This document shows positions 8,920 to 31,753 of a DNA stretch of 64,000 nucleotides, piece by piece. Every line of letters starts with the position of its first letter. The first letter of the stretch is position 1. The DNA comes from a marine actinobacterium MedAcidi-G1 (GTDB taxonomy: Bacteria; Actinomycetota; Acidimicrobiia; Acidimicrobiales; MedAcidi-G1). The position numbers and the translations under genes are program-made. The stretch is from contig JUEM01000005.1 of assembly GCA_000817085.1 (NCBI GenBank), positions 1 through 64,000 on the forward strand, written 5' to 3'. A model generated the notes under the pieces. The model saw only the letters and a program-made list of their open reading frames with translations. It was not told where the DNA came from and searched no databases.

Positions 8920-9416
8920 TTTCTGAAACCTACACACTTGTAGTAAATGGAAGTAGTTATCAAGTTGTTGATGGTCACCCATCCGAAAGTCTTCTATGGG
9001 TTTTACGAGAAAGGCTCGAACTTTCTGGATCAAAAAATGCCTGTGAGGAAGGAGAGTGCGGATCTTGCACAGTCCTTGTTGACGAAGAAATCGTTTGCAG
9101 TTGTTTAGTTCTTGCAGCTTCTGCTGTGGGTCGTGAAATCACCACAATCGAAGGACTTGGGTCAGATGGTGAAATTTCAGATGTTCAGAAAGCTTTTGTC
9201 GAAGCGGGAGCGGTTCAGTGTGGGTTCTGCACACCAGGGTTATTAGTTGCAATAGATCAACTATTGAATACGGATCCTGATCCAGACGATTTGACAGTTA
9301 AGGAAGCAATTAGTGGAAATCTTTGTAGATGTACCGGTTATGGAAGAATCCTCGAAGCTGTTCGGATAGCAAGTAAAGACCGAAAAGCTCAAAATGAAGA
9401 GGAAATAAACAAATGA
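8916..9416 (+). CDS. Molybdenum hydroxylase [2Fe-2S] subunit
   Basis: A 166-residue small subunit carrying two [2Fe-2S] clusters. The plant-ferredoxin-type cluster has C43, C48, C51 and C63; the second, CO-dehydrogenase-type domain has C102, C105 (QCGFCTPG) and C137, C139 (LCRCTGYG). It relays electrons from the molybdenum site to the FAD subunit. It overlaps the genes on both sides by four bases, giving the order FAD, FeS, Moco. Confidence 0.95.
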   Translation: MISETYTLVVNGSSYQVVDGHPSESLLWVLRERLELSGSKNACEEGECGSCTVLVDEEIVCSCLVLAASAVGREITTIEGLGSDGEISDVQKAFVEAGAVQCGFCTPGLLVAIDQLLNTDPDPDDLTVKEAISGNLCRCTGYGRILEAVRIASKDRKAQNEEEINK

Positions 9417-11704
9417 ACCGACTTCAAACGGTAGAAACAGCCACCAAAGGCCCCAGAATAGGCGAGAGCGCTATTCGGCCTGACGGTATCCCAAAGGTCA
9501 AGGGAGAATTTGTATTTTCTAATGATTTACGTCATCCAGATATGCTTTGGGGCGGAACTCTTCGTTCGCCGCATCCATCCGCACGGATAGTTTCAATAAA
9601 TACGATTCCTGCTTTAAAAATGACGGGAGTTCACGCTGTTTTGACAAGCGAAGATCTGAGCGGTATGCCTCTGTACGGACTTGAGCATCCCGATCAGCCA
9701 GTTCTAGCCGATGGAGTCGTGAGATATCAGGGTGAACCTATAGCAATAGTTGCAGCTGATCATCCTGAAAATGCAAGACTCGCACTGGAAGCAATAGAAG
9801 TTGAATACGAACTAATTGAACCTCTTTCAGACTCGGAATTGGCGCAAGAAAATGAGGCAATACATCCAGACGGAAATCTTTTTAGGGAAATAAACCTAAG
9901 TTACGGGAACTCTCAAGAAGAGGAGGAAGGGGAAGTAACTGTTGAAGGGACATATGAAGTGGGGATGCAAGATCAAGCGCCTCTAGGAACAGAATCAGGA
10001 ATGGCAGTTCCATCAGAAGACGGGGGAATTGACCTTTTTGTATCAACCCAATGGCTTCATGCTGATCGTGACCAAGTCGCTGCTTGTCTAAATCTCCCTT
10101 CTGAAAAGGTAAGACTGACATTGGCTGGAGTTGGAGGTGCATTTGGAGCTAGAGAAGACATAAGTCTTCACATACATCTCTGTCTTTTGGCTATGAGAAC
10201 AGGTAAACCCATAAAGATGTCCTATTCGCGAACCGAAAGTTTCCATGGTCACGTGCACCGTCACCCAGCCAAGATGTGGTATCGGCATCACGCTAAACCT
10301 GACGGGACCCTTACAAGAGTTGAAGCACGACTACTTTTAGACGGGGGAGCCTATGCCTCTACAAGTAGTGCTGTGTTAGCTAATGCCACTTGTTTTGCTG
10401 CGGGGCCGTATCTGGTGCCGAACGTAGAGGTATACGGAGCAGTAGTTCGAACAAATAATCCTCCCTGTGGAGCTATGAGAGGTTTCGGATGTGTACAAGT
10501 TTGTTTTGCTCACGAAGCACAGATGGACAAATTAGCTATTGAATTGGGCATGAGCCCTATTGAATTGCGAGTAAAAAACGCTCTTAAACCTGGAGACCAG
10601 ATAATAACCGGACAAACTATTACGGGGACGGCCCCAGTAACCGAAGTAATAGAGACATGTGCTCAGCATCCCTCTTCTGCAGGTTTAGCATCACAACAAA
10701 TGGAGCTTCCTGGAGGGGCGGGGAGAACCGCCGATCCAAAACATATTGTACGAGGAGAAGCTATTGCAGTTGGATTCAAGAATCTGATGTTTTCAGAAGG
10801 ATTTGATGATTTCAGCACGGCTTCCTGTCAGCTTTTAGACGGAGTTGCGACGATTACATCTGCATGCGCCGAAGTTGGTCAAGGTTTTGTGACATTGGCC
10901 CAGCAGATAGTCAGAGAAATTTTAGGAGTTGAAGAAGTGATTTTGGCACCTGCCTCTACGGCCAGTGTGGGATCGGCAGGCTCTACTTCAGCTAGTAGAC
11001 AAACTTGGATGTCGGGTGGTGCAGTTAAGAGTGCATGTGACGAAGTACGTATTAAGCTTTTGTCCCGCATCGCAGAATCCCATGAGATAGATGTCGAATC
11101 TTTAGTCATAGTGGATGGGGGAATAGCTTCTTTATCAAGCGACTTCTCCATCAGCTTGAAAGAAGCGACTTCTGATCCAGTAGAAGCAGAAGAGGTTTAT
11201 CGACATACGCCCACTTTCCCTTTAGATGAAAATGGTCAGGGGGACGCACATGTCTCTTTTGCATTTTCAGCGCATAGAGCAGTGGTAGATGTAGATCAGG
11301 AACTTGGATTAATCAAAGTAGTCGAATTGATCACCTCCCAAGATGTAGGAAGAGTATTGAACCCACTGCAACTTCAAGGCCAATTGGAAGGTGGAGCTGC
11401 ACAAGGCCTTGGCTTAGCTGTGATGGAAGAAATTAATGTTGTGGATGGTCGAATTCTGAATCCTTCTTTTACCGACTACCTTCTACCCACTGCCCTAGAC
11501 ATGCCACCCGTTGAAATAGCGGCTCTAATAGAACAGCCAGAACCTAATGCGCCTTTTGGTGCGAAAGGGGTAGGAGAACCTCCAGCGATTTCATCGACCG
11601 CTGCAATAGCTTCAGCAGTCAGAAATGCCACGGGTTTAGACCTCCATAGAGTCCCGATTAGACCTACAGACATTGTTTTTGCAGAAAGGGTCGAGAATGA
11701 CTGA
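9413..11704 (+). CDS. Molybdenum hydroxylase catalytic (molybdopterin) subunit
   Basis: A 763-residue large subunit of the xanthine dehydrogenase family. The N-terminal hammerhead domain begins near GESAIRPDGIPKVKG; the Moco-binding loop GVGGAFGAR lies around residue 240; and the C-terminal GAKGVGEPP carries the catalytic glutamate expected in this family. It hydroxylates a carbon next to a ring nitrogen or an aldehyde, using water as oxygen source. Xanthine dehydrogenase activity fits the neighbours (8-oxoguanine deaminase, allantoate-type amidohydrolase), but nicotinate-like or other heterocycles are possible. It overlaps the following M20 gene by eight bases. Confidence 0.93.
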   Translation: MNRLQTVETATKGPRIGESAIRPDGIPKVKGEFVFSNDLRHPDMLWGGTLRSPHPSARIVSINTIPALKMTGVHAVLTSEDLSGMPLYGLEHPDQPVLADGVVRYQGEPIAIVAADHPENARLALEAIEVEYELIEPLSDSELAQENEAIHPDGNLFREINLSYGNSQEEEEGEVTVEGTYEVGMQDQAPLGTESGMAVPSEDGGIDLFVSTQWLHADRDQVAACLNLPSEKVRLTLAGVGGAFGAREDISLHIHLCLLAMRTGKPIKMSYSRTESFHGHVHRHPAKMWYRHHAKPDGTLTRVEARLLLDGGAYASTSSAVLANATCFAAGPYLVPNVEVYGAVVRTNNPPCGAMRGFGCVQVCFAHEAQMDKLAIELGMSPIELRVKNALKPGDQIITGQTITGTAPVTEVIETCAQHPSSAGLASQQMELPGGAGRTADPKHIVRGEAIAVGFKNLMFSEGFDDFSTASCQLLDGVATITSACAEVGQGFVTLAQQIVREILGVEEVILAPASTASVGSAGSTSASRQTWMSGGAVKSACDEVRIKLLSRIAESHEIDVESLVIVDGGIASLSSDFSISLKEATSDPVEAEEVYRHTPTFPLDENGQGDAHVSFAFSAHRAVVDVDQELGLIKVVELITSQDVGRVLNPLQLQGQLEGGAAQGLGLAVMEEINVVDGRILNPSFTDYLLPTALDMPPVEIAALIEQPEPNAPFGAKGVGEPPAISSTAAIASAVRNATGLDLHRVPIRPTDIVFAERVEND

Positions 11705-12953
11705 AGATCTTCGAATAAATGGTGAACGTCTCCTGAGCCGTATTGAAGAACTCGCATCTATAGGAGCTATCGATGGGGGCGGTTCATGCCGTCTTGCTCT
11801 GACAGATGAGGATCGAGCGGGTCGTGATCTCGTTGTTGCATGGATGAGAGATTTAGATCTAGAAATAAATATTGATTCAATCGGAAACGTAGTAGCAGTT
11901 AGACCTGGAAAAACTGACGGTCCGCCAACTATGACAGGAAGTCACATTGATACTGTTCGAACTGGAGGCAGATATGACGGGAATTTGGGCGTACTCGCAG
12001 GTTTAGAGATAATCGAGTCTCTTTCTGAAAACAAAATAGAAACCCAACATCCAGTTGCAGTTGCTTTTTTTACTGATGAAGAAGGTTCAAGATTCGCGCC
12101 GGACATGCTAGGCAGTCTCGTTTATGTAGGGGGAATGACACTTGAGGAAGCCTTAGATATAAAGGGTGTTGATGGAGCCAAAGTAGGAGATGAATTAGAC
12201 CGTATCGGTTACAGGGGAGCTTCCCCATGTCCCGGTCCTTCTCCCAGAGCTTTTGTGGAGTTGCATATTGAACAAGGCCCAGTTTTGGAAGTAGAAGGTG
12301 TAACAATCGGAGCGGTAACAGGAGTGCAAGGCATTTCATGGACCGAGCTCACAATCACAGGTGAATCTAATCATGCGGGAACCACTCCAATGGCACTTCG
12401 ACATGATTCAGGCTTTGCAGCTGCTGCGATTTCCACTTATGTTCGTGACTTGTCTTTAGAAATGGGAGGAAGCCAGGTAGCCACAGTTGGGAGACTGGAG
12501 CTACACCCTAATTTGGTCAATGTGGTGGCAGGTTCAGCTATTTTGACCACAGACTTAAGAAACACGGTCGAGGCTCGTTTAGCGGAAGCTGAAAAAAAGC
12601 TTGCTGATTTTCTATTAGAACTAGCTTCGAATGAAGGCTTAAAAATTGAAAAAAGACAATTAGCTAGATTTGAACCAGTCGACTTCAACGAGGAAGTTGT
12701 AAGCACAGTAGAAAATATAGCCTCCCGACTGGGACATTCAGTAATGAAACTTCCGTCCGGTGCAGGACATGATGCTCAGATGATGGCAAGAGTTTGTCCA
12801 ACGGGAATGGTATTTGTACCAAGCCACAAAGGTATAAGTCACAACCCACAGGAGCACACAGATTCTGATGACCTTATTGCAGGTTGCAACGTTTTATTCC
12901 AGACGATTCTTGATTTAGATATGAAAGATTTCGGAGGTTTGGAAAGTAAATGA
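11697..12953 (+). CDS. M20-family N-carbamoyl-L-amino acid hydrolase / allantoate amidohydrolase
   Basis: A 418-residue metal-dependent amidohydrolase of the hydantoinase/carbamoylase group. Key motifs are TGSHIDTVRTGGRYDGNLG (metal His and bridging Asp), FTDEEGSRF (catalytic Glu pair), ELHIEQGPVLE, and the C-terminal SGAGHDAQMM. Members cleave N-carbamoyl amino acids, ureidoglycolate-type compounds or allantoate to ammonia and CO2. I chose the ATG at 11697, overlapping the upstream stop (ATGACTGA), over an upstream in-frame codon inside the previous gene. Specificity (AllC, UAH or carbamoylase) is open; the purine-type context favours a ureide. Confidence 0.88.
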   Translation: MTEDLRINGERLLSRIEELASIGAIDGGGSCRLALTDEDRAGRDLVVAWMRDLDLEINIDSIGNVVAVRPGKTDGPPTMTGSHIDTVRTGGRYDGNLGVLAGLEIIESLSENKIETQHPVAVAFFTDEEGSRFAPDMLGSLVYVGGMTLEEALDIKGVDGAKVGDELDRIGYRGASPCPGPSPRAFVELHIEQGPVLEVEGVTIGAVTGVQGISWTELTITGESNHAGTTPMALRHDSGFAAAAISTYVRDLSLEMGGSQVATVGRLELHPNLVNVVAGSAILTTDLRNTVEARLAEAEKKLADFLLELASNEGLKIEKRQLARFEPVDFNEEVVSTVENIASRLGHSVMKLPSGAGHDAQMMARVCPTGMVFVPSHKGISHNPQEHTDSDDLIAGCNVLFQTILDLDMKDFGGLESK

Positions 12954-13918
12954 CGCGCATTTTAAAAGTGGGTGCAGCTCAGCTTGGACCTATACAGAGA
13001 GAAAATAATAGAAAGGAAGTAGTTGAGCGACTTATTGCGCTTTTAAATAAAGGAGCGTTAGCGTCTTGCGACCTTGTAGTTTTCCCAGAGTTAGCCCTTA
13101 CAACCTTTTTTCCGAGATGGTGGTCAGAAGATATAGCTGAATTTGATCATTTTTTTGAGACCGAAATGCCAAACAAGGAAGTTCAACCTTTATTTGATGA
13201 AGCAAAAAAATTAGGAATCGGATTTCATTTAGGTTATGCAGAAATGACCCCTGATGGTCATCGTTACAACACCGCAATTCTTGTTTCTAAAAATGGCGAC
13301 ACGCTAGGTAAATATCGAAAGGTTCACCTTCCCGGTCATGAAGAGAATGAGCCTTGGAGAACTTTTCAGCATTTAGAGCGCTACTACTTCGAACCAGGCG
13401 ATGAACTAAAAGTATTTGGAGCTTTTGATGGAATTTTGGGTATGGCTATCTGTAATGATAGAAGATGGTCGGAAACCTACAGAGTGTTGGGATTGCAAGG
13501 TTGTGAACTAGCACTTATTGGGTACAACACCCCAGTGCATTACCCTCCTGATCCGAGTCAGGACGTTCTGGCCGGTTTCCATAATCACCTGGTGATGCAA
13601 TCAGGTGCATACCAGAATGGGATGTGGGTAGTTGGAGTAGCTAAAGCCGGCAATGAAGAAGGTTGCGATCTTTTAGGAGAAAGCTCGATAATAGCCCCAT
13701 CTGGTGAAATCATTGCTCAGTGTTCAACAGTAGAAGATGAATTAGTATCAGCAGTTGTCGATTTGGACATGTGTGCAAATTATAAGGAAACTCTTTTCAA
13801 TTTTGATCGATATAGAAGGCCTGAGGTGTATAAGTCAATTACTTCGCAAACCGGTGTTGAAATACCTGAAGGAATTGAAGTTCAAAAACAAGACGATGAA
13901 GGCTTGAAGGGTAGTTGA
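12950..13918 (+). CDS. Nitrilase-superfamily hydrolase, N-carbamoyl-D-amino acid hydrolase-like
   Basis: A 322-residue carbon-nitrogen hydrolase. The Glu-Lys-Cys triad is visible as VFPELAL, KYRKVHLPG and MAICNDRRWSETYRVLG; CNDRRW is characteristic of the D-carbamoylase branch. It should cleave a ureido group to amine, ammonia and CO2. Having both an L-type (M20) and a D-type carbamoylase side by side suggests that the pathway ends in ureido products, perhaps of both configurations or from two different rings. It overlaps the M20 gene by four bases. Confidence 0.9.
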   Translation: MTRILKVGAAQLGPIQRENNRKEVVERLIALLNKGALASCDLVVFPELALTTFFPRWWSEDIAEFDHFFETEMPNKEVQPLFDEAKKLGIGFHLGYAEMTPDGHRYNTAILVSKNGDTLGKYRKVHLPGHEENEPWRTFQHLERYYFEPGDELKVFGAFDGILGMAICNDRRWSETYRVLGLQGCELALIGYNTPVHYPPDPSQDVLAGFHNHLVMQSGAYQNGMWVVGVAKAGNEEGCDLLGESSIIAPSGEIIAQCSTVEDELVSAVVDLDMCANYKETLFNFDRYRRPEVYKSITSQTGVEIPEGIEVQKQDDEGLKGS

Positions 13919-19892: not shown

Positions 19893-20603
19893 TCAGTTTC
19901 TAAAAGGGCTTACCACCCCGAATTTTGCCTTTTCTCCTGTTAAAGCACCCCAACGGCGTGTACCGAACTCAAAATGCCACCATTCTTCTTGAAAAACAAC
20001 AAAGTCATGTGCGTGCATCGTCCAATACAAAAAACGACGAAAATCTCTATCAAATCCCGGGGTTTTCTCTAAGAAATCTGCTCGCGCTGCAGGAGTAATA
20101 TCATCAAATCCTGATGCGGGTGCCAAAGGAACATTGTCAAAGGTGAAAGTCAGGTCAACTGCTCCACCAGTTAAATGAGGCGGTGGGGTAACAGGGTCAC
20201 TATTTGGTTCAGCGAATAATTCTTCCGGAACTTTCGGATCCTCGCAGGCGGCTTTAAAAAGTTCATTTTGTAGAGCCAGAGGCCTCCATGCATCAAAAAT
20301 AGCCAGTCCCCACCTTTCAGGGAGCTCTTCAGTGATGCAATAGAGTTTTTCAGCAACAGATTCCCGAAGCCAAGAGGTTTTGAAAGAGTTTTCCCAGCCT
20401 GCCTCCCAGTAGCAATTCAGCGTTTTTACATGAGGATGCTTTAATTCAATAAGAGGTTCGTCATCAAATATTTCTAAAGCAGACGCTTCAGGCTCCCACA
20501 ATTCAGGTATGGCTTCTGATTCAGGAATATCTATGTTGAGATTTTTAAAAAACTTTTGCACATCAGTGGTTAGAACAGGTTCTCCAATCTTCTGCACCCT
20601 CAA
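19893..20603 (-). CDS. VanX-like D-Ala-D-Ala dipeptidase (peptidase M15D)
   Basis: A 236-residue zinc peptidase of the VanX family. The zinc/catalytic motif PHLTGGAVDLTF (His and Asp seven residues apart) and the second motif EEWWHFEFG are intact, as is the WGLAIFDAWRPLALQ strand before them. Family members cleave D-Ala-D-Ala, but no van-type resistance genes are near and there is no signal peptide. It is the last gene of the minus-strand XdhD-like operon and overlaps the LLM gene (ATGA), so it may hydrolyse an amide bond in a catabolic intermediate or be a dipeptide scavenger. Confidence 0.85.
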   Translation of the reverse strand: MRVQKIGEPVLTTDVQKFFKNLNIDIPESEAIPELWEPEASALEIFDDEPLIELKHPHVKTLNCYWEAGWENSFKTSWLRESVAEKLYCITEELPERWGLAIFDAWRPLALQNELFKAACEDPKVPEELFAEPNSDPVTPPPHLTGGAVDLTFTFDNVPLAPASGFDDITPAARADFLEKTPGFDRDFRRFLYWTMHAHDFVVFQEEWWHFEFGTRRWGALTGEKAKFGVVSPFRN

Positions 20604-21565
20604 CCTCCAAGAACCTGGGCTGTTACTTCAAGTAAAGAAACTCCACTATCAGGTTCAAATACAGGAATCATGAATTCATTAAAACCATGCTGTTCGACAA
20701 GACGAGCAAGTTCGTCAGCGCATTCGCTTACGCTTCCAGAGATGACAAAAGGTAGAACCCAATCATCTGACACATATTCTGCAGCTGCTTCAAGGCTGTT
20801 AGCTAGAGCACTGCGTATATTCGAAACATCTTTTTCAGTGACACCCAACTCATCAAGCACTGTCTTAGGAGAGTCCACCAGACGGTATGTCATATGGGGT
20901 CTAACAATTTCAAGAGATTCATCGTCAGTGACGATCATTGTTGAATAACAAATTTTTGGATCGTTGTTTCCACGTTCAGCACCCATTTTTATATTTTCTA
21001 CATATTCACCGAGTAAAGGTTTGAAAATAAAATCTAACATCACCCCGTCAGCAACAGAGCCGCCAAGGTCAAGCATTTTAGGACCGCGCCCAGCTAACCA
21101 AATTTCAATATCAGATCTTCCATAATTTAATTGTGCTGATTTGAAAGAAAATCCTGGTGCTTCCAAATCAACTTTTTTACCCGCGAATAACTGTCGGCAG
21201 GCAGAAATTGTTTGACGAACAGTTTCGAGAGGCTTGTAACGCTCAATTCCAAGAGGGTCTAAAGTCAAACTTCCTCCCGCCCCTATTCCCAAAAAAGCAC
21301 GACCGTTAGACATTTCATCAAGAGAAGCTATAGCAGCAGCAGTCTGACCTGGATGACGGGTGTAAGAATTTGTAATACCGGGGCCAACAATTAAGTTTTC
21401 AGTGGCATGCAGAATAGCGGTCATGGTGACATAAACATCTCGAGTTGCTAACCCTTCGTCGTATACCCAACAACGTTCAAAACCCAATTGCTCAGATCTG
21501 ATAGCTAAATCACACATAGAATCAATTGAAGTTTCTGGGATGAGATTGATACTTCCTGGAATCAT
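20600..21565 (-). CDS. LLM-class flavin-dependent oxidoreductase (paralogue B1)
   Basis: A 321-residue luciferase-like protein. Family features include RCWVYDEGLATRDVYV, VGPGITNSYTRHPGQTAAAIA, GIGAGGSLTLDPLGIER and IWLAGRGPKML. It is a clear paralogue of the protein at 36793-37755, sharing RCWVYDEGL and the GIGAGG region, and belongs to a different LLM subgroup from those at 17576 and 30728. It lies between yqeC and the VanX-like gene. Substrate and cofactor (F420 or FMN) are unknown. Confidence 0.85.
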   Translation of the reverse strand: MIPGSINLIPETSIDSMCDLAIRSEQLGFERCWVYDEGLATRDVYVTMTAILHATENLIVGPGITNSYTRHPGQTAAAIASLDEMSNGRAFLGIGAGGSLTLDPLGIERYKPLETVRQTISACRQLFAGKKVDLEAPGFSFKSAQLNYGRSDIEIWLAGRGPKMLDLGGSVADGVMLDFIFKPLLGEYVENIKMGAERGNNDPKICYSTMIVTDDESLEIVRPHMTYRLVDSPKTVLDELGVTEKDVSNIRSALANSLEAAAEYVSDDWVLPFVISGSVSECADELARLVEQHGFNEFMIPVFEPDSGVSLLEVTAQVLGG

Positions 21566-21574
21566 CTAAGAAAC

Positions 21575-22312
21575 CTATCCTTCTTGATGACTTAGAACTA
21601 GAGAAATTTCAACTTCTGAGTCAAAACTCTGAAGCTCTTGAACTAAACGCTCAACAATGTTTTGGTTTCCAGGAGAAACCTTTGTAATCGCTATAACGAA
21701 ACGCATTCCATTTTTTAACCCTTTTCTAGATCCGTTCGAATCGAGTAAAAGAATGGCAGCCCTTTTAGGGGTGAGTCTTTCATAGGGAGAGCAATTAACG
21801 ACCGCCGCGACTCTTAGCGGTCTATGGCATTGGTCTTCGATAACTCTATCAATTGCATCAGCACCGATTACTGCAATAACAGTTGTTACACCTTGGGGTA
21901 AAACAGGTTCGTAAGGCGCAGGAGCCTTCGCTGGATGTCGTCTCGCTCCATCTGCTTCAACGATGACTCTGGTTGCTTCGGGTAACCAACCTTTGGGTAG
22001 CGAAGGATCAACTCCGAAAGCTTTTTCACCCTTGACGCGATCCCAGATCATAACGGGAGCATTTCCTCCTAAGGCATCGGCAAGCTCTTTTTCAGAAGGG
22101 CTAATGAGCAAATTTGCTTCTCCTGTTTGGTCACTCCCCATTTTGGTTGTAGTAGTTAGAATCGTTCCTCTACCGTGAAGTTCTCCTAGAGCCCTAAGAA
22201 GAGTTGATTTACCTCCGCCTCCAACCAGAGCGACTATCTCACCTTCTTTTATTTCTAGATTTTCGACAGCCTTGTGAACCTCTAAAGGTTCGATTTGTTT
22301 TTTTCTAACCAT
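21575..22312 (-). CDS. yqeC: YqeC-like molybdenum hydroxylase accessory ATPase
   Basis: A 245-residue protein matching YqeC, annotated in other bacteria as a putative accessory protein of selenium-dependent hydroxylases. It begins with a P-loop, IVALVGGGGKSTLLRALGE (residues 26-44), followed by TILTTTTKMG, then VIVEADGARRHPAKAPAPYEP and TTVIAVIGADAID, all family landmarks. It probably uses nucleotide hydrolysis in cofactor maturation or insertion. It overlaps yqeB by 31 bases. The family normally accompanies enzymes with a labile selenium or sulfur at the molybdenum; that link is knowledge of the family, not shown here. Confidence 0.85.
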   Translation of the reverse strand: MVRKKQIEPLEVHKAVENLEIKEGEIVALVGGGGKSTLLRALGELHGRGTILTTTTKMGSDQTGEANLLISPSEKELADALGGNAPVMIWDRVKGEKAFGVDPSLPKGWLPEATRVIVEADGARRHPAKAPAPYEPVLPQGVTTVIAVIGADAIDRVIEDQCHRPLRVAAVVNCSPYERLTPKRAAILLLDSNGSRKGLKNGMRFVIAITKVSPGNQNIVERLVQELQSFDSEVEISLVLSHQEG

Positions 22313-23085
22313 TTAGTTACAGCTTCCATTACGCCATTTCCAACTGCTAGAGCCTTGTCAGAAACTTTGTCTACATCAACGCTTGCACCTCTCGGGTCTA
22401 TATCCCCAATCTTCATGCCGGCTTCTAGCGGCACGCCTTCATTTATCATTCCACGAATTAGTCCGCTAGTTCCGGCAACTATCGAACTATCTCCCACAGA
22501 GCCAATTACTTCACCTTTTTTGACCAGATCACCTATGTCCTTCACCCAGTGAATTTCTCCATCAGAAGGAGAACGCAATAGGCGTTCACTTGTAAGCCCC
22601 CCAACTTCACCAGGAATTCCTGTGTCTTTATGTGCATAACCATCCCAAATCACTTTCCCCAAATTGGGTCCGCGCATGGTCTCGACAACAGCATGACAGT
22701 CCTTACCGGCAAAAAACCCGGGTCCAAGAGCAACAACTAAGTCGGCATCATCAATTTTTGTATCCATAGGTTTTTTCTGCATTCTGGCATCGACAATCAC
22801 AGAAATTGGGAAAGGTGGGAGAGATTCGCTGATTAGAACTGGAACAACGTTAGTAGATGCAAAGTCATCAATATTTGAGAGTTCATCAATTTTTTCGCCT
22901 ACTATTTCCTCAATTTCTATTTTTTTGTCGAGAATCGCTGATGAAAGTGAAACTTTTCTTCTTACCGCCAAAGGATTTTCCAAATCAAATACGACCACGG
23001 GCATTCCTCTTCTTTTTAGTTGAAGAGCAACACCGGTTCCCAGGTCTCCGCCTCCACGTATTAAACAGAGATGTTCAGAAATCAC
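22282..23085 (-). CDS. yqeB: YqeB-like molybdenum cofactor maturation protein
   Basis: A 267-residue protein of the YqeB/EF2563 family, annotated as selenium-dependent molybdenum cofactor biosynthesis protein. Landmarks are the glycine-rich start CLIRGGGDLGTGVALQLKRRG, the conserved NPLAVRRKVS, a central VVALGPGFFAGKDCHAVVET and IWDGYAHKDTGIPG. It lies between xdhC and yqeC, in the order known from other loci. The exact reaction is not established; with XdhC it presumably modifies or hands over the sulfurated (or selenated) cofactor to a molybdenum hydroxylase encoded nearby. Confidence 0.87.
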   Translation of the reverse strand: MISEHLCLIRGGGDLGTGVALQLKRRGMPVVVFDLENPLAVRRKVSLSSAILDKKIEIEEIVGEKIDELSNIDDFASTNVVPVLISESLPPFPISVIVDARMQKKPMDTKIDDADLVVALGPGFFAGKDCHAVVETMRGPNLGKVIWDGYAHKDTGIPGEVGGLTSERLLRSPSDGEIHWVKDIGDLVKKGEVIGSVGDSSIVAGTSGLIRGMINEGVPLEAGMKIGDIDPRGASVDVDKVSDKALAVGNGVMEAVTKWLEKNKSNL

Positions 23086-23087
23086 AG

Positions 23088-23891
23088 CTAATTATTACTA
23101 GAATTATCTTTTTCGATGATTTGAGACATGATAGAAATAGCTATTTCTTGAGGGGTCTCAGCATTCAAGTCTAAACCTATGGGTGAAGTGACTCTAGAGA
23201 AATCTTGTTCCGAAATGCCAGATGATGACAGTGCAGATCTAGTTGTTTCCCATCGCCTAGAACTTCCCATTACTCCAATTGATTTTGTATCAGTAGAAAG
23301 CAGATGAGGAAGGTTTTGGATGTCCAATTCAGCATTGCGTGTAACAGCTACTACATGATCTCGTTCCGTTAAATTGATCTGCTCTAGAGCATCTTCAATT
23401 GAGCCGGCGATAACAAGATCTGCTCCAGTTACGTTTTCAGTTAGCTCTTCTCGATCGTCTGTTGCAACGACATAGTAGCCCAACCAGCTAGCAAGCTCGG
23501 CTACGGCTCTTCCGACATGACCGCACCCGATAATCAGAATTTTAGAATTGGGCATATAGGTCTCCAAATGAATAGTAACCGTTCCACCACAAACACCTGG
23601 ATCTCCAGCCACTGGATCAACTAGTTCATAGTTCAGCAGAAGTGAGGTGCCGTCGTCCATGCAGGCACAGGCTTCTTTTATTACCCGTGCTTCCATCTCT
23701 CCACCACCTATAGTTCCAATTTGTTCAGAGTCAGAAAGTATCAACATTTTTGCCCCAGAATGCCGTGGTACGGATCGGGAAGTTTCCACAACTGTTGCTA
23801 AAACGACAGTATTTCCTTCATCAATGAGATTATTAAGTTTGGTCAGTATCCGAGTCTCGTCGACACCCTTACTGAGATTTTTTTTACCCAT
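23088..23891 (-). CDS. xdhC: XdhC-family cofactor insertion protein
   Basis: A 267-residue XdhC/CoxI-family protein. It shows the N-terminal XdhC domain (TVVLATVVETSRSVPRHSGAKM, then GTIGGGEMEARVIKEA) and the C-terminal Rossmann domain (KILIIGCGHVGRAVAELASWLG). XdhC binds molybdenum cofactor, protects it during sulfuration and inserts it into the hydroxylase. The ATG at 23891, overlapping the previous stop by eight bases (ATGGGTAA), is preferred over an upstream in-frame start inside the amidohydrolase gene. One XdhC may serve all three molybdenum hydroxylases of the window. Confidence 0.9.
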   Translation of the reverse strand: MGKKNLSKGVDETRILTKLNNLIDEGNTVVLATVVETSRSVPRHSGAKMLILSDSEQIGTIGGGEMEARVIKEACACMDDGTSLLLNYELVDPVAGDPGVCGGTVTIHLETYMPNSKILIIGCGHVGRAVAELASWLGYYVVATDDREELTENVTGADLVIAGSIEDALEQINLTERDHVVAVTRNAELDIQNLPHLLSTDTKSIGVMGSSRRWETTRSALSSSGISEQDFSRVTSPIGLDLNAETPQEIAISIMSQIIEKDNSSNN

Positions 23892-25215
23892 TTTCACCCC
23901 AGAGGCGCCTAGCTTGCCGATGAACAGATTCTCTTTGATTTTCAAGATCAGCCCCAAGAATCTCGCCATTTTTTAATTTCCATTTTCCTGCAATCATTAC
24001 AGAGTCGACATGATGACCAGAGCGATAAAGAATCACTTGCTCAATTAGGTTTTCTTCAGTCGAGGGAGTTGGAAAGTTTGCATCAATTAATTGGAGGTCA
24101 GCCACGAAACCTGGTTTCAAAGCACCAACATTATCTAGGCCTAGGGCTTCCGCTCCTTGAAGAGTTGCCATTTCAAAAACTTGTTCAGCTTTCATCGTCC
24201 CAGGATCTTGAAGACGTGCTTTGTGGATGAGAAAAGCTCCTCGCATTACGTCAAACATGTCATTCATGTATCCGTCGCTTCCCAGAGAGACACGGACGCC
24301 TTTTTCGAGCAGTTCGGGAATAGGAGCTATCCCACCTCCAACCTCACAGTTAGATAAAGGCATATGAACACAACGTGTTCCAGCAGATGAAACTAATTCA
24401 ATCTCTCTTTCAGATAGATGAACACACTGAGAAGCCAGAAATCGCGGACCATTTATCCCAAGTTTTTCGTAATGTTCGAATGTTCGGTGTCCAAAAGTTT
24501 TTTCACACCATTCGCCCTCATAGGCACCTTCATTGCAGTGAGCATGAAAGAGAACGTTATTTTCTTCAGCCAGCTCGAATGCATGTCGAAGAAAGTTATC
24601 GGAGCAAGTGAATGTTGTATGGACACTCATAAATCCAGACACAAGATTCCCTTCAACGTTTGTTTCAATCAAACGGATATTTTCATCAATTCCTTTTTGA
24701 GCAACTTTTGAACCGGATCTTTCACTTGCTTCAAAACTGAGCAAAGCTCTAAGTCCGCGTTTTTCTACGATTTCCTTTTCGAGTAAGAGAGAGTCGGGAA
24801 GTGACTGGGGTGCTTCTAAGATGTCGCAAAATGTCGTTGTTCCACTTAAAAGCATTTCACTGCATAACCATTCGGTCGCAGCAGAAATCATTTTATGATC
24901 AATTTTGTCTTCGACTAAAGGCCACCAAAACTTTTCTAGAAAAGACCAAAAATCTGATGGAGCAGATTTTACTGGTATGCCATGTGCCAGAACCCCATAC
25001 ATATGGATATGCCCATTAACGAAACCGGGCATGAGTACCTTGTCTTTAGCTAAAAAGATTTCGTCTTCTGAAAACTTGGTTTCCAGTTCTTCGTTTGGTG
25101 CAACAGATTGAATTTTGCCGTCGTATACACGCACACCCCAATTTTGTTTGGGCTCATTTGAAGATTCAGAAATCAACCAAGCGGGTTGAATAATGAGACC
25201 GCCCTTTGAGGGCAT
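23884..25215 (-). CDS. Amidohydrolase-superfamily deaminase/hydrolase
   Basis: A 443-residue member of the Atz/Trz/SsnA-like amidohydrolases with a full-length fold. Metal and catalytic motifs are NGHIHMYGVLAHG, FHAHCNEG, ASQCVHLSERE and LGSDGYMNDM. The insert DFWSFLEKFWWPLVED is like SsnA, and its length equals that of SsnA. It sits directly after the XdhD-like gene, where ssnA sits near xdhD in enterobacteria. A cyclic amidine or imide hydrolase or deaminase is likely; the substrate is unknown. It is not closely similar to the short SsnA-like protein at 16495. Confidence 0.85.
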   Translation of the reverse strand: MPSKGGLIIQPAWLISESSNEPKQNWGVRVYDGKIQSVAPNEELETKFSEDEIFLAKDKVLMPGFVNGHIHMYGVLAHGIPVKSAPSDFWSFLEKFWWPLVEDKIDHKMISAATEWLCSEMLLSGTTTFCDILEAPQSLPDSLLLEKEIVEKRGLRALLSFEASERSGSKVAQKGIDENIRLIETNVEGNLVSGFMSVHTTFTCSDNFLRHAFELAEENNVLFHAHCNEGAYEGEWCEKTFGHRTFEHYEKLGINGPRFLASQCVHLSEREIELVSSAGTRCVHMPLSNCEVGGGIAPIPELLEKGVRVSLGSDGYMNDMFDVMRGAFLIHKARLQDPGTMKAEQVFEMATLQGAEALGLDNVGALKPGFVADLQLIDANFPTPSTEENLIEQVILYRSGHHVDSVMIAGKWKLKNGEILGADLENQRESVHRQARRLWGENG

Positions 25216-25217
25216 TT

Positions 25218-28139
25218 CTAGTTTCCTTTAAGCGCTCGATGAACGCGTTCAGGTGTAAAAGGAAGTTCGTCTATTCGGACTCCAGTAGCGTTGAGAATCG
25301 CATTTCTTACGGCAGGTGCCACACCATCTTTAGGTATCTCTGCAACCGCTTTCGCTCCGAAAGGCCCACTGTCCTCCATTGTCTGAACTAAAAACACTTC
25401 AGTTTTAGGCATTTCGTCCGCTCTGTAAATTCGATAAGGTCCGAATGAAGGATTTACCATTGCCCCTTTATCATCAAGAACAATTTCCTCACAATGTGCA
25501 TAACCCAAGGCTTGAAGCATTCCACCTTCTACTTGACCACTTGCGGTCACGGGATTAATAGCCACACCACAGTCCACTGCCATGACCATTTTTATTATTT
25601 CAATCTGACCAGTTTCAATATCGATTTCGATCTCAACAAATTGTGCAGCAAAAGGAGGAGGACAATCAGGCGACACATGCGAACCAGTTCCCATAATTTG
25701 TTCTTGTTCATTCAAATGCAAAGAATCCAGAGCAATTTCTTCAAGACTTACTGAACGACCATCAGGCGCCCAGGCCCGCCTGTCACGCAATTCAATAGAA
25801 CAGGGGATTTCTATATCAAGCAACATAGCTGCACGTTCTTTTAGTCTGGTACGCACAACATCTGCAGCTTTTTTAGCAGCGGTGCCAGAAATGTAGGTTG
25901 TACTTGAAGCGTAAGCACCCGTATCAAAAGGAGTAACATCAGTGTCAGAAGAGTAAACCCTTATATCTTCTAAAGGCACTCCTAGAACTTCTGCGGCTAT
26001 CTGACCAAGAACAGTGTCTGCTCCAGTGCCTAAGTCCGTAGCACCCACAAGCATATTGAATGAGCCATCATCATTTAGTTTTATGCTGCATCCCCCCATA
26101 TCCAGAAAAGGAATAGATGTTCCATGCATGCAAAACGCAAATCCAAGCCCTCTCCTGATATGTGTTCTATCAACGGGATTTTTCCAAGACTCATCATGCC
26201 TGCGATGCCAACCAATCGCACGACTTCCTTGAGCGACACACTCTTCGATTCCGTTAGACATAACTTTCGGATATTCATCGAGTTCTTCTTCTGTTGTTCC
26301 TTGTTCACCCAAGTGCGGAGCAATGTTCATTTCATCTCCGACCTTCACCCAATTCTGTCTCCGGAATTCAATAGGATCCATTCCCAAATCAAGTGCAATA
26401 TCTTCCATATGAGCTTCTAAACCGAAGAGAGCTTGAGGTGCTCCGTATCCTCTATACGCTCCTGGCACAGGAATGTTTGTGTACATGACATCACAATCGA
26501 AACGTTTGTTATCACAGTTGTAAGAGGAAAGACCTCTAAGGCCAGCGACTGTCTGCACGGTGTAACCATGAGTTCCGTAAGGTCCTGTATTGCCAACTAG
26601 TTTTAGTTCTTGAGCAACAAGATTCCCTTCCGAATCAACGCCTGTTCTGTAAGTAAGTGTTTGCGGGTGTCGAGTTCTGCTTGCATAAAATTCTTCCGCT
26701 CTGGTCAACTCGAGTTGGACTGGTTGCCTAGTGGCTATAGCTAAGTGGGCGACAATATCTTCGATAAGCATTTCTTGTTTAGCGCCAAAGCCACCGCCAA
26801 TTCGCGGTTTGATAATTCTGACATCTTTAATATCCATTCCAACTAAAGGTGCAAGCATGCGACGTGTGTGAAATGGCACTTGTGTGGCGGTTCTAACGAC
26901 CAGACGTTCATCGCTATCGAGCCAAGCTGTAGAAATATGAGGCTCTATAGGCGCCGGTTGAACTTGATGAACTCGAAAAGTCTGTTCATACGTCCGATCA
27001 GCATTTTGTAGAGCGGAATCTACGTCACCTCTTTCAGCAAATATTTGATGAACCAGATTTCGGTCTCTGTCGGCAATGTCTACAGTGTCAACTTCATCAT
27101 GAATCACCGGAGCATCGGGATTTCCAGCGTCCAATTCATCAAAGACTGCTGGTAAAACTTCGTACTCGACCTTTATTAGAGCGCAAGCTTCTTCAGCTAT
27201 TTGTGGGGTTTCAGCCGCTACTGCAGCCACACGATCACCTACATGTCTAACCTTGTTATCAAAACTAACTTGGTCGTGAGGCTTAGGATTCGGATAAGAC
27301 TGACCTCCTGAAGCATATTTAATTCGATTAATGTTCTCGTGGTGTATGACGGCGTGAACCCCTGGAATTGCGAGTGCTTCAGAATCATCTATTGAGGTGA
27401 TTCTCGCATGAGCGTGTGGGCTCCTAAGAACCTTTGCATGAAGTAAACCTCGAATGTCAAAATCGGCGGTAAACGCTGGGTTTCCTTTCACCAATCGAAC
27501 TGCATCTACCTTGACTTCTGGTTGCCCTACCACTGAAGTTGAGGGAACTTCTGAAGAAGGAATCAACCTTGGGATGGCATCTGAAGCCTCAGGAGGGGAA
27601 TCGTCTGGATCTACTTCGACAGCGTTGACTCCATCAGTCATAGGTTTGAGTATCAAAGGTCTAAATGGTTCTGGTTCCTCTCCACGAAGAACCGCTGCAG
27701 CTTGCTTAACTGCTGCTACAGGTTTTACATATGCAGTTTCTCGATCAAGAATCCCTGAAAGCATGTCGCGTATTTCAATTTCACTTGGATCGGGGGTTTC
27801 TTTCAATAATTGAAGAGTGCCAAGAATCATTGCTCCCACTGAGTAGCCCGATTGCATAGCACCAGTTGCTGCAAAAGCTGCCTGAACAGGGTGGAGGGAA
27901 GAGTCTGTATTTAGAGATTCAAGTGTTACCACTGAATGCCCGTTTGCTTGGGCTGCAAGGATTACTTCGCTACTTGCGAGCAGATCGTCGAAAAGAACAG
28001 CTGAAGCTCCGGTTTCCCCAGTTGAAGAACCGAAGCGAACGCTTGACATGCCTTCACGTCTAAGAACCATCAATAAGGTTTCGTGAGCCTCACATTCGAT
28101 TGCCGTCTCTTGACCGTTAAGTTCAATATTAATCTGCAT
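25218..28139 (-). CDS. xdhD: XdhD-like molybdenum hydroxylase with degenerate iron-sulfur domain
   Basis: A 973-residue fused hydroxylase. The Moco part looks functional: hammerhead from about residue 210, loop GGGFGAKQEM and a C-terminal GPFGAKAVAEIP that keeps the glutamate. The N-terminal 140 residues still align with a [2Fe-2S] subunit but every cluster ligand is changed: the first motif reads FGSSTGETGAS (S38, T43, S46), the fourth ligand is aliphatic near residue 60, QCGFC has become Q-SGYS (S97, S100) and LCRC has become LDRE (D132, E134). Only one cysteine, C16, remains there. E. coli XdhD (956 residues, from memory) is similarly altered. Electrons therefore must leave by another route, or a partner supplies the clusters. 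Confidence 0.88.
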   Translation of the reverse strand: MQINIELNGQETAIECEAHETLLMVLRREGMSSVRFGSSTGETGASAVLFDDLLASSEVILAAQANGHSVVTLESLNTDSSLHPVQAAFAATGAMQSGYSVGAMILGTLQLLKETPDPSEIEIRDMLSGILDRETAYVKPVAAVKQAAAVLRGEEPEPFRPLILKPMTDGVNAVEVDPDDSPPEASDAIPRLIPSSEVPSTSVVGQPEVKVDAVRLVKGNPAFTADFDIRGLLHAKVLRSPHAHARITSIDDSEALAIPGVHAVIHHENINRIKYASGGQSYPNPKPHDQVSFDNKVRHVGDRVAAVAAETPQIAEEACALIKVEYEVLPAVFDELDAGNPDAPVIHDEVDTVDIADRDRNLVHQIFAERGDVDSALQNADRTYEQTFRVHQVQPAPIEPHISTAWLDSDERLVVRTATQVPFHTRRMLAPLVGMDIKDVRIIKPRIGGGFGAKQEMLIEDIVAHLAIATRQPVQLELTRAEEFYASRTRHPQTLTYRTGVDSEGNLVAQELKLVGNTGPYGTHGYTVQTVAGLRGLSSYNCDNKRFDCDVMYTNIPVPGAYRGYGAPQALFGLEAHMEDIALDLGMDPIEFRRQNWVKVGDEMNIAPHLGEQGTTEEELDEYPKVMSNGIEECVAQGSRAIGWHRRHDESWKNPVDRTHIRRGLGFAFCMHGTSIPFLDMGGCSIKLNDDGSFNMLVGATDLGTGADTVLGQIAAEVLGVPLEDIRVYSSDTDVTPFDTGAYASSTTYISGTAAKKAADVVRTRLKERAAMLLDIEIPCSIELRDRRAWAPDGRSVSLEEIALDSLHLNEQEQIMGTGSHVSPDCPPPFAAQFVEIEIDIETGQIEIIKMVMAVDCGVAINPVTASGQVEGGMLQALGYAHCEEIVLDDKGAMVNPSFGPYRIYRADEMPKTEVFLVQTMEDSGPFGAKAVAEIPKDGVAPAVRNAILNATGVRIDELPFTPERVHRALKGN

Positions 28140-28882
28140 TATTTCTCACCGTTCAGTAAATCAAGAGCCCGTGAAGCAAGAATTTTCACTAGATGTATTC
28201 TGTATTCCGAATCTCCGCGGAAATCACTAGGAGGTTGCAATGAAACTGTCGGATTCTCTGGGTCCACAAGAACTGGAGTTGGAGCAACTCCAGTAACAGC
28301 CATTCGGTCACCATCAGAGCAACGTCTTGCAGCAACCGAAACAATAGGCGTATCAGCCGGAGTTCTTCCAGTTGCTTCTAGTAGGGACTTTCCATCGGTT
28401 GCTATATCAATAGATATAATTAATTCTGACTCTAGACCTTCTGGTTTAATTAGAACTTCTTGAAGAGGAACACTTAATTCCCCATCAGAAGAGTTGAGAA
28501 TCGTGACTTCAGCATCGTGAACTAAGAGACTTGCTATCAGTTGGCTATCAGAATCACCGCTAGCGATCGTTCCTCCAATAGTTGCCAGAGTTCTCAAAGT
28601 GCTAGGTAATTCAGAACGTGAAGAAAGTCGAATTAAATCAGGACAATCGGAATTTTTCATTATTTCGTGAAGTGTTGTCATGGAACCTATTTTCAATTTC
28701 CCATTCGAGCTAGCAATTCCTTTCAAAGCGAGACTTTGAAGATCTACTAGATGAAGAGGTTCCGTATCTTCATTAGTATTTAATTGAGTCCCACCTGCTA
28801 GCGGAACGTGTTTGTCTTGGGAAATAAGACTTAGTGCTTCTTCAAGATTTTCAGGTCTCTGATATGAAATTATTTTTGTCAT
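28139..28882 (-). CDS. YgfM-like FAD-binding subunit, diverged
   Basis: A 247-residue protein with the fold of the molybdenum hydroxylase FAD subunit. The first flavin motif reads VPLAGGTQLN where typical subunits have AGGTDL, and the second reads LATIGGTIASGDSDSQL where they have TLGGN and SPxxD. These changes resemble YgfM, the partner of XdhD in E. coli (AGGSKLN, TIGGEIA, from memory). FAD binding may be weakened or altered. I chose the ATG at 28882; a TTG at 28891 is in frame. It is the first gene of the eight-gene minus operon and abuts the XdhD-like gene. Confidence 0.82.
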   Translation of the reverse strand: MTKIISYQRPENLEEALSLISQDKHVPLAGGTQLNTNEDTEPLHLVDLQSLALKGIASSNGKLKIGSMTTLHEIMKNSDCPDLIRLSSRSELPSTLRTLATIGGTIASGDSDSQLIASLLVHDAEVTILNSSDGELSVPLQEVLIKPEGLESELIISIDIATDGKSLLEATGRTPADTPIVSVAARRCSDGDRMAVTGVAPTPVLVDPENPTVSLQPPSDFRGDSEYRIHLVKILASRALDLLNGEK

Positions 28883-28968
28883 TAAATCCAATTCTGATTC
28901 TCAGATATACATGTTACTCCAAGAAGAAATTATCAGGAACTTAAAGATTCTCAACGTCAGAAGACCTA

Positions 28969-29363: not shown

Positions 29364-30728
29364 TTAAAGAAGTCGAGAGGGGATATTAGCTTTCTGGAAG
29401 ACCTTTTCTGCACATTTGGTTGCTCTGGCTATAGCTTTTTTCTCATTAGTGAAAGTAATATCCCTGTCTTTAATTAAAAATTTTCCGTCAACCATCACGT
29501 GAGTAACATCTCTGGGGGTAGCGCAATAAACTATTGCAGACGCCACTTTATGTACTGGTGCAGAGAAAGCAGTCATTAAGTCAATGACTATTAGGTCTGC
29601 TTTTTTGCCGATCTCCAGCGATCCTATTTCTTTTTCTTTACCTACTAAGCGAGCACCATGCCGACAAGCCAAATGAAGCACTTCTTCTGGTTGTAAGACA
29701 CTTGCATCTAATCGATCAACTTTTTGTAGTAAAACAGTTGCTTTGCACGTTTCGAACATATCCTGTCGATTGTTACTTCCTGGTCCATCAGTTGCTAAAG
29801 CAACAGTGATGCCACGATCGAGCATTTCTTTAATTTTTGCTACTCCGGAAGCCAGATACATATTTGACACTGGACAATGAACAACTGAAGCTCCACGTTT
29901 CGATATCAAATCAATTTCATCTTCGTCTAGCCAAATGGAATGTGCAAGTTGAATGTCAGGACCCAAAAGTCCTAATGATTCAAGCCAATGAACATGTCTG
30001 AGGCCACGCTCTTCAATATTCATTTCCACTTCAATTGCTGTTTCGGCACAGTGAAGATGTGTTGAACCACCCCATGACCTTGTTGCAGTGACAGTCTCAG
30101 TCATTGCACTGTCTGAACAGCCCCATGGGATCAAAGGTGCTAAACCTACTTGAATTCGATTATTCTCGGCACCATGCCATTTTTCATGCACGGATCTTAT
30201 GCGACTTACAACTTCTTTAGCTGACTCCGTTAGGGGTGGGTGGTAATTTCGGTCTGCCCATCCACTCGCCAATATAAATCTCAGTCCGGCTTCAGATGCG
30301 GCCTGACAAACAGCATGATCTATTTGTGGATCCACATGAATATATTGATGGTCGACAACGGTAGTAGCGCCGCCTCTGAGGTTTTCTATTAACCCCAATG
30401 TCGCAGCTGCCTTTGCAGATTCTGCATCAAGCTCCGAAGCGCCTGGCCAGATGCATTCTTTGAGCCAATCAAGAAGAGGTTTATCATCGGCCAGTCCTCG
30501 GAAAAAAGTTTGGAAAAGGTGTGTGTGTCCATTTACCATCCCTGGCATCACCGCTGAGCCAGGAGTTTCAATTATTTCATCCGCTTCCTTGCGGATATTT
30601 CTAGGCGCTTCACCTTTGCCGATATTCTCGATCACGTCATTTTTTGTAAAAATCCAACCTGGATCTAAAACAGAGTTTGAGTCATCAACGGTTACTATCG
30701 CTGGGCCCTCTAAGAGTATCGAATGCAT
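29364..30728 (-). CDS. Amidohydrolase-family deaminase (AtzB/TrzN or 8-oxoguanine-deaminase-like)
   Basis: A 454-residue metal-dependent amidohydrolase. Motifs are NGHTHLFQTFFRG, STHLHCAE, LAHSIWLDEDE and LATDGPGSNN, with DWLKECIWPGASE between the first and second as in chlorohydrolase and guanine-deaminase relatives. It is encoded immediately after a paralogue-A LLM gene (stop and start overlap by one base), exactly as the 8-oxoguanine deaminase gene follows the LLM gene at 17576. A purine- or triazine-like amino-group substrate is therefore likely but not proven. Confidence 0.83.
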   Translation of the reverse strand: MHSILLEGPAIVTVDDSNSVLDPGWIFTKNDVIENIGKGEAPRNIRKEADEIIETPGSAVMPGMVNGHTHLFQTFFRGLADDKPLLDWLKECIWPGASELDAESAKAAATLGLIENLRGGATTVVDHQYIHVDPQIDHAVCQAASEAGLRFILASGWADRNYHPPLTESAKEVVSRIRSVHEKWHGAENNRIQVGLAPLIPWGCSDSAMTETVTATRSWGGSTHLHCAETAIEVEMNIEERGLRHVHWLESLGLLGPDIQLAHSIWLDEDEIDLISKRGASVVHCPVSNMYLASGVAKIKEMLDRGITVALATDGPGSNNRQDMFETCKATVLLQKVDRLDASVLQPEEVLHLACRHGARLVGKEKEIGSLEIGKKADLIVIDLMTAFSAPVHKVASAIVYCATPRDVTHVMVDGKFLIKDRDITFTNEKKAIARATKCAEKVFQKANIPSRLL

Positions 30729-31753
30729 TACATAGACCAGTTAGCGAAAGCATCAATAACTGGAACCATGTCATCCATAAGTGGATAAAGAATAGGGCAA
30801 GTTACGCCGGCATCTACATATTCTTCAACGGTTTCACGGCATTGTTTGCTTGTGCCCGCAGCCATAAGAGACTTGACAAGATCGTCTGGAATCAGATCAG
30901 CAGCTTTACGGTAGTCAGCTTCCGTAGCTGGCCAACCAACCACTTCTTTGACTCGCTCAATTAGATCAGGATCGGCACCACTAGCCTTCATTATGTGGGG
31001 CTCGGTCCCAAGGTAGTATGCGATAAGTGATTTCCCTGTACGGATAGCCTCGTTTGGATCTTCATCGGAAAGGGAACAAACCAACAGTTCAGGTCTATCA
31101 ATTTGCTCTAAGCTCTTTCCAGATTTTTGAGCCCCATTCGAAATCAGTTTTACAGCTTCACGGATGTATTGTGGTGTCACGATGTAGTTAAGAACTACGC
31201 CATCACAGATTTCACCAGCCAGTTCGAGCATTTTTGGACCAGTTGCACCGAGGTAAATAGGGATAGATCTGGCTTCTATGTTGCCATATGCCACGTCCAG
31301 TTTAATTCTGTCTAGATTTACAAATTCACCCGAGTAGCTGACTTCTTCCATGGTGAAGAGTTCTCGAATCGCTTCAATATTTTCTCTCATTGCTTTAAGA
31401 GGTTTTTTTCTTTCTTCACCCACTCTGGAAGTAATAGGTTCCCACCAAGCACCGAGTCCTAGCATTACCCGACTTTGATTAGTTTCATCGAGACCAGCTA
31501 GTTCCCACATGGTGCTCCAGGTAGCAGCTATTACTGCAGGGTTACGAGTCCAAATAGGTAAAACTCCTGAACCGATACGAACGTTCTTTGTTGCAGTTAA
31601 AAGAGCGCTCATCATGACTACACAATCACGCGCTAAACGTGTGTCTGCTTGCCAGATTTCTTTTATTCCGCGTTCCTCTGCATATTTGGCCATTTCTAGC
31701 TCATATGCGATTTCGTGTTTATCTTGAAAATAAAGAGCGATTCTAGAGTTCAT
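30728..31753 (-). CDS. LLM-class F420/flavin-dependent oxidoreductase (paralogue A2)
   Basis: A 341-residue luciferase-like oxidoreductase, full length and closely related to the one at 17576. Shared blocks include [53 protein letters not shown] and TCPILYPL. It is divergent from the RidA gene with 40 bases between starts, and both starts carry their own TANNNT box. LLM with RidA recalls rutA/rutC of pyrimidine degradation, in which an LLM monooxygenase opens uracil; this one is not RutA itself, since it is of the F420-reductase-like subgroup. Confidence 0.86.

Follow-up and report, generated by a model that had tools for sequence, protein, structure and literature searches.

For the enzyme that begins the reductive breakdown of urate, the electron donor has been stated to be undiscovered in the case of the clostridial XdhAC (PMC12990295) and is taken, in the available text on the Escherichia coli enzyme, to be reduced nicotinamide adenine dinucleotide (NADH) acting via the flavin adenine dinucleotide (FAD) of YgfM (PMC12507026). 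In that system XdhD, together with a co-purified band of ∼30 kDa that is putatively YgfM, is reported to convert urate to yanthine (Li et al. 2025, PMC12507026). E. coli XdhD has, however, none of the ligands for the iron–sulfur (Fe-S) clusters that would join FAD to molybdenum (Mo). These missing ligands are given no mention in PMC12990295, they are unmentioned and the word cysteine is absent in the available main text of PMC12507026, and no description of the loss was found in the literature searched, a body of work that has subscription papers outside it. Here we describe a related gene pair in 64,000 nucleotides of contig JUEM01000005.1 of the marine actinobacterium MedAcidi-G1 (hereafter the window, meaning the whole stretch analysed), in which an XdhD-like enzyme is without all eight ligands and its Mo-site motifs are intact. 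The pair consists of the following two genes:

28139..28882, minus strand: YgfM-like subunit of the FAD_binding_5 family, its loops altered (AGGTQLN and TIGGTIASGDSDSQ) and its double glycines retained
25218..28139, minus strand: XdhD-like fusion of a Cys-less 2×[2Fe-2S]-fold domain (residues 1–150) with molybdopterin domains whose site motifs are intact

The likeness to E. coli extends to the order of the ygfM–xdhD pair, the fusion of an Fe-S-fold domain to the Mo protein, the eight missing ligands, the places at which the FAD loops are changed, and the presence of SsnA and YqeB/YqeC in the cluster. The two XdhD proteins differ in that they are 38 per cent identical, and their ligand losses are separate on the tree described below.

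The original prediction for the YgfM-like gene had described the Fe-S domain of its partner as degenerate, and this is borne out. The N-terminal domain of the XdhD-like protein (973 residues) matches Fer2_2 (56 bits) with no match to Fer2 at E 0.001, and the alignment places S/T/S/E and S/S/D/E at the eight ligand positions, so that none of the eight is Cys and the protein departs from the pattern of the xanthine oxidase family, in which eight Cys hold two [2Fe-2S] clusters. By the same alignment, E. coli XdhD is subject to the same kind of loss, with all eight Cys missing. The molybdopterin domains of the window protein, on the other hand, are matched by MoCoBD_1 (249 bits), MoCoBD_2 (243 bits) and PF01315 (98 bits), and the catalytic-site motifs are conserved in each of 26 XdhD-like rows compared, whatever their ligand state, with an Arg-to-Gln change in E. 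coli as the exception. Residue E612 of the window protein is the counterpart of E. coli Glu606, is likewise conserved in those 26 rows, is invariant in both a 7-row and a 46-row alignment, and corresponds to a residue proposed for urate orientation in the available text of PMC12507026. The predicted model of the protein (predicted local distance difference test, pLDDT, 89.6) has blocks of 88–96 in residues 1–150 and would retain the fold of the Fe-S domain. Its top Foldseek match is the Desulfovibrio gigas aldehyde oxidoreductase MOP (query TM-score, TMq, 0.83), which carries both [2Fe-2S] clusters, whereas the window XdhD has no Cys ligands. MOP is described as being without an FAD domain in the part of PMC3958847 available. 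Substitute Cys ligands within the Fe-S-like domain were considered and rejected: among 36 fully Cys-less rows only residue 16 (53 per cent) recurs there at more than 30 per cent, and the other ten Cys positions recurring above that level all lie at residue 396 or beyond.

The relatives form a graded series, from proteins with all Cys, through proteins in which the flavin-side set is replaced (mostly by D-S-D-G or D-T-D-G) and the Mo-side Cys are kept, to proteins with both sets replaced (for example S-T-A-D / S-S-D-E); the assignment of the sets to the flavin and Mo sides is one that we take from known structures. The 80 relative loci are the best 80 of at least 583 confirmed, and one of the two scan patterns contained QSGY. 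With a set counted as lost when not all four of its Cys are present, and with 6 partial rows dropped from the 90 tree rows, the remaining 84 comprise 23 with both sets intact (including two outgroup rows and a Cetobacterium protein scored by eye), 19 with only the flavin-side set lost, 41 with both lost and 1 with only the Mo-side set lost. Loss on the Mo side is thus accompanied by loss on the flavin side in 41 of 42 rows (rows, not events), which suggests an outside-in order with the flavin side first. In the clade of the window the Mo-side Cys are still complete in one row (L071), and a single Mo-side Cys remains in five others (L059, L060, L066, L080 and L087).

Parsimony on trees of the Mo domain, inferred under LG+G4 for 90 rows and under a mixture model for a 50-row subset, requires seven flavin-side and seven Mo-side changes. 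A single origin of the flavin-side loss, in which all lost rows of the 50-row subset are forced into one clade, is rejected by the approximately unbiased (AU) test (p-AU 5e-57). E. coli XdhD is sister to the Cetobacterium protein, both on long branches, and its loss looks separate because this sister has all eight Cys. In the phylum of a Symbiobacteriaceae record (G061), the clostridial-type XdhAC, a xanthine dehydrogenase / urate reductase with separate subunits, is akin to E. coli XdhD in its Mo domain and differs in its ligands, the Mo-side Cys motif being present in 23 of 23 loci newly fetched from that phylum and searched anywhere in the locus. The closest named records among the matches listed for the window are ‘Microthrix’ metagenome-assembled genomes (MAGs), at 96 and 79 per cent, followed mostly by Acidimicrobiia. 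Several record titles are at odds with their neighbours on the tree (L037 and L045, titled Planctomycetaceae and Planctomycetota, and L088, titled Methanosarcinaceae), as would be seen with mis-binned contigs or with transfer.

The prediction had also held that the changes are not random decay, and the substitution patterns agree. Median ratios of nonsynonymous to synonymous substitution (dN/dS, NG86; 21 pairs from seven genomes of the genus) are 0.065 for the Cys-less domain, 0.020 for the Mo domain of XdhD and 0.160 for YgfM; the corresponding medians for an intact xanthine dehydrogenase (XDH) of the same genus (15 pairs, six genomes) are 0.110 for the Fe-S, 0.057 for the Mo and 0.126 for the FAD portion. 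With ratios as low as these, and with changes of the same kind in the E. coli pair, a pseudogene is rejected. The loss of all Fe-S ligands is real and conserved, and it has probably occurred repeatedly.

The YgfM-like gene opens with ATG at 28882 and runs for 247 codons to a TAA at 28141–28139, with a TTG at 28891 as an alternative start, and this stop runs into the start codon of the XdhD-like gene in the sequence TAATG, an arrangement of start–stop coupling. Membership of the FAD_binding_5 family (PF00941) is secure by profile score (79.1 against a gathering cut-off of 27 bits, E 4e-22), although the protein falls short of the YgfM equivalog TIGR03312 (64.8 against 241.5 bits). The loop changes named in the prediction, AGGTQLN and ATIGGTIASGDSDSQLIA, are present in the frame; they replace the D/N/D positions of the FAD loops and leave both double glycines in place. 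E. coli YgfM (from NC_000913) is changed at the same places, to AGGSKLN and STIGGEIAARQEES. PF03450 (CO_deh_flav_C) does not match the protein at E 0.001 and does match the neighbouring intact FAD subunit, yet the AlphaFold model aligns at full length with the medium chains of CO dehydrogenase (CODH). That model has a pLDDT of 92.6, its lowest-confidence block (56) being residues 31–40, the AGGTQLN loop. Its best structural neighbours are CODH flavin chains (Z 27.9, root-mean-square deviation 2.5, 246 residues), and six CODH chains occupy ranks 1–6 of a Foldseek search (TMq 0.81–0.89).

There is reason to think, with somewhat better than even confidence, that the Mo centre of these enzymes turns over locally, its electrons coming from a diffusible donor or from a second purine and not via FAD and Fe-S. 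Because no clusters link them, electrons on any YgfM flavin could not reach the Mo centre along the usual path; the centre would instead be reduced in its own pocket by the diffusible donor or second purine, and would meanwhile take off or shift a hydroxyl group of a purine, for example urate. YgfM and the Fe-S domain, now empty, may persist as parts of the structure or because they serve some other purpose, and enzymes of the luciferase-like monooxygenase (LLM) class encoded nearby would probably carry out the next reduction, as has been proposed in print for Chloroflexota clusters. Repeated loss with intact Mo motifs may point to chemistry that is redox-neutral, or in which reduction is direct, within a textbook enzyme family also relevant to gut urate, and for the same reason the question of the electron donor can be put directly in E. 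coli.

A number of observations weigh against local turnover, or against repeated loss of the ligands. The available text of PMC12507026 assigns NADH, via the FAD of YgfM, as the donor of E. coli XdhD. The window keeps Arg in GAYRGYG where E. coli XdhD has Gln (GAYQGYG), and it misses the XdhD equivalog TIGR03313 (644.8 against 1101.9 bits), the XdhA model NF043082 scoring slightly higher at 656.7, under its cut-off of 780; given this Arg and the missed XdhD and YgfM cut-offs, the substrate of the window enzyme may not be urate. The sampling of 80 loci biases the proportions of ligand states, and most Cys-less rows derive from MAGs. The AU test used 50 of the 90 rows, chosen by the authors, with a group named after the states seen. 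A tree of the N-terminal domain alone, with the ligand columns and their neighbours removed, has little resolution (9 of 48 inner branches starred) and needs just four flavin-side and six Mo-side changes, so that the losses can be counted only as a range. One locus (L111, 10001–12961) has the reverse pattern, with the flavin-side Cys all kept and the Mo-side Cys replaced by S, D, S and E, and an independent-pairs test of the two losses gives a median p of 0.125. In the window clade (38 rows, 34 of them complete) the replacing residues are only partly conserved: among the complete rows the first two positions are S and T in all, E134 and S97 (the latter part of the search pattern) reach 90 per cent, and the remaining four lie between 60 and 90 per cent. 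A search at E 1e-130 of 369 genomes from the class of a record titled Acidithiobacillus (G063) returned G063 itself only. Diaminopropionate lyase, an enzyme of the published reductive uricolytic pathway, exceeds its cut-off in none of the nine genomes of the genus, which are 68–84 per cent complete. In many relatives from Chloroflexota, the flanks fetched (annotated in part for four loci) hold hardly any of the cluster genes of the window, or none.

The cluster genes in question, followed by three entries that lie elsewhere in the window, are these:

20600..21565, minus strand: LLM1, an LLM-class oxidoreductase closest to F420 models, below their cut-offs; also near XdhD in relatives
21575..22312, minus strand: YqeC, marker of selenium-dependent molybdenum hydroxylases (TIGR03172, 144.6 against a cut-off of 73.05)
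22282..23085, minus strand: YqeB, marker of selenium-dependent molybdenum hydroxylases (TIGR03309, 294.4 against a cut-off of 220)
23088..23969, minus strand: XdhC-family molybdenum cofactor maturation factor
23884..25215, minus strand: SsnA-like amidohydrolase (TIGR03314, 255.9 bits, under the cut-off of 455.5)
29364..30728, minus strand: second amidohydrolase, also near XdhD in relatives
30728..31753, minus strand: LLM2, an LLM-class oxidoreductase closest to F420 models, below their cut-offs
8065..11704, plus strand: separate xanthine dehydrogenase (FAD / 2Fe-2S / Mo) whose motifs are intact, used as internal control (Mo subunit of PucD type, 854.9 against 783.65 bits)
11673..13918, plus strand: hydantoinase/carbamoylase-family amidase and carbon-nitrogen hydrolase
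13920–16502: another fused Fe-S/Mo hydroxylase, its Cys motifs intact, near selenium-dependent xanthine dehydrogenase (806.8 against a cut-off of 830.45)

Judged by gene content, the locus would be a purine-type catabolic island (PucD-type XDH, carbamoylase-family amidase, SsnA-like protein, YqeB, YqeC and selD), in which LLM1 is a candidate dihydropurine-forming reductase and the amidase and carbon-nitrogen hydrolase are candidates for downstream ureido-cleaving steps. D-hydantoinase exceeds its cut-off in nine of nine genomes of the genus, the copy of the window's own genome lying on another contig. YqeB and YqeC stand beside the enzyme, and selD is over its cut-off in this genome and in seven of the nine genomes of the genus (this one included), which together mark a selenium-dependent hydroxylase; the XdhD-like enzyme is, on these genomic grounds, probably selenium-dependent. 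In Clostridioides difficile, growth is reported to profit from uric acid only if selD and yqeB are present (PMC11448449, available text).

A rival reading, possible though improbable, is a redox-neutral purine transhydroxylase, in which one purine is hydroxylated (for example xanthine at C8) and the electrons dehydroxylate another (for example urate at C6). The net reaction would be xanthine to 2,8-dioxopurine, and no electron wire would be needed. Such a reaction would account for intact Mo motifs alongside repeated loss of the relay and low dN/dS, and would suit those XdhD-like genes that have no YgfM-like gene within ∼10 kb on either side (L059, L060, L066 and L071); upstream of a further one (L080), none was found in the 9.7 kb covered. 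Clostridial xanthine dehydrogenases, moreover, are reported to operate in both directions in the available text of PMC11448449. On the other side, the formation of yanthine from urate by E. coli XdhD was seen with NADH as donor in the assay mix (PMC12507026, available text), and the neighbouring intact XDH could already supply urate. We hold it similarly unlikely that the wireless XdhD-like enzymes as a whole are redox-neutral purine transhydroxylases, that is isomerases acting, for example, from xanthine to yanthine, whose electron chain was repeatedly dismantled, mostly from the flavin side first, because the Mo centre hands electrons from one substrate to the next.

Doubtful, and ranked below this, is the conventional arrangement assumed for E. 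coli, in which the FAD of YgfM takes electrons from NADH and passes them to Mo despite the missing clusters. The double glycines and the predicted FAD fold are kept, which favours it. Flavin and Mo lie much further apart in xanthine dehydrogenases than direct transfer would allow, however, and E. coli XdhD, the enzyme for which the route was assumed, is itself without all eight ligands. Co-purification and the formation of yanthine in the presence of NADH argue for this route in E. coli (PMC12507026, available text). The assay section of that paper, as available, describes controls from which enzyme or substrate was omitted but none from which NADH was, and the storage buffer of E. coli XdhD also contained dithiothreitol.

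The original prediction went further and held that the FAD and Fe-S sites were lost together, in a coordinated shift away from flavin. Its premise, that both electron-transfer parts are abnormal, stands in the window and in E. coli alike, and four relatives (L061, L062, L065 and L067) have lost the second double glycine together with both ligand sets of the partner. A survey of 42 FAD-type rows found −200 to 3000 bases upstream of XdhD-like genes nonetheless makes the coordinated loss itself very improbable. Four rows are truncated or gapped; in the others neither the first Asp nor the Asn is retained, the sole exception being an ordinary FAD subunit at L052. Nine of the rows stand next to XdhDs with all eight Cys, and the five of these that are complete with both double glycines (L074, L098, L100, L113 and L114) have the first Asp and the Asn replaced in five of five and the second Asp in four of five, L098 having kept it; among the other four, L073 and L076 have degenerate loops and L088 and L089 are truncated or gapped. 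Since the change is present in complete rows beside all-Cys XdhDs, it does not track the Fe-S loss. Conversely, both double glycines are kept in 20 of the 27 rows beside XdhDs that have lost both ligand sets, a class that includes two truncated rows and, among the 20, the ordinary subunit at L052. The loop changes look like a lineage signature common to relatives.

The prediction had offered YgfM and CoxM as yardsticks for FAD binding. The fold of the window model matches that of CODH flavin chains, and E. coli YgfM is itself changed at the same places. The CODH medium chain (CutM/CoxM) and the FAD-binding subunit of 4ZOH, both taken from PDB chains, have AGGH in place of AGGTD in the first loop, and the loop change was therefore rejected as a diagnostic of FAD loss. 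Both retain the Asp of the second loop, and CoxM differs further from the window YgfM in keeping TIGGN along with the Asp of DPxxD, and in a stretch of ∼19 residues absent from the YgfM profile. Given that the loop changes occur beside all-ligand XdhDs and that other PDB chains do without AGGTD, and given the retained double glycines and the CODH-like fold, loss of FAD by the window YgfM is unproven, and its predicted model gives no sign of lost FAD binding. The suggested shift away from a flavin pathway is plausible only for a neighbouring step, where the LLM enzymes lie near F420 models (below cut-offs), cofH, a gene of F420, is over its cut-off in eight of the nine genomes of the genus (this one included) and YgfK is over its cut-off in none of the nine. 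A decaying or dead enzyme, which the missing cofactor ligands might bring to mind, is extremely improbable in light of the low dN/dS, the conserved Mo-site motifs and a cluster common to relatives.

Elsewhere in the family the surroundings vary. Directly upstream of the XdhD-like gene of L059 lies a gene of the dihydroorotate dehydrogenase family (PF01180), the family that PMC12507026, in its available text, uses for UacX. The partial neighbour annotation of L059, L061, L071 and L105 reveals no common theme; the annotated neighbours in L105 and L061 are not purine genes (cytochrome oxidase subunits, for example, near L061), and the XdhD-like family may have another role there. The selD gene of the window's own genome (L123, G000:C38:27490-28413) has an in-frame TGA, like all seven over-cut-off selD genes of the genus, and its SelD is probably selenocysteine-containing. 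Within the window itself, a UbiD-family decarboxylase lies at 37763–39106, flanked by LLM-class and amidohydrolase genes.

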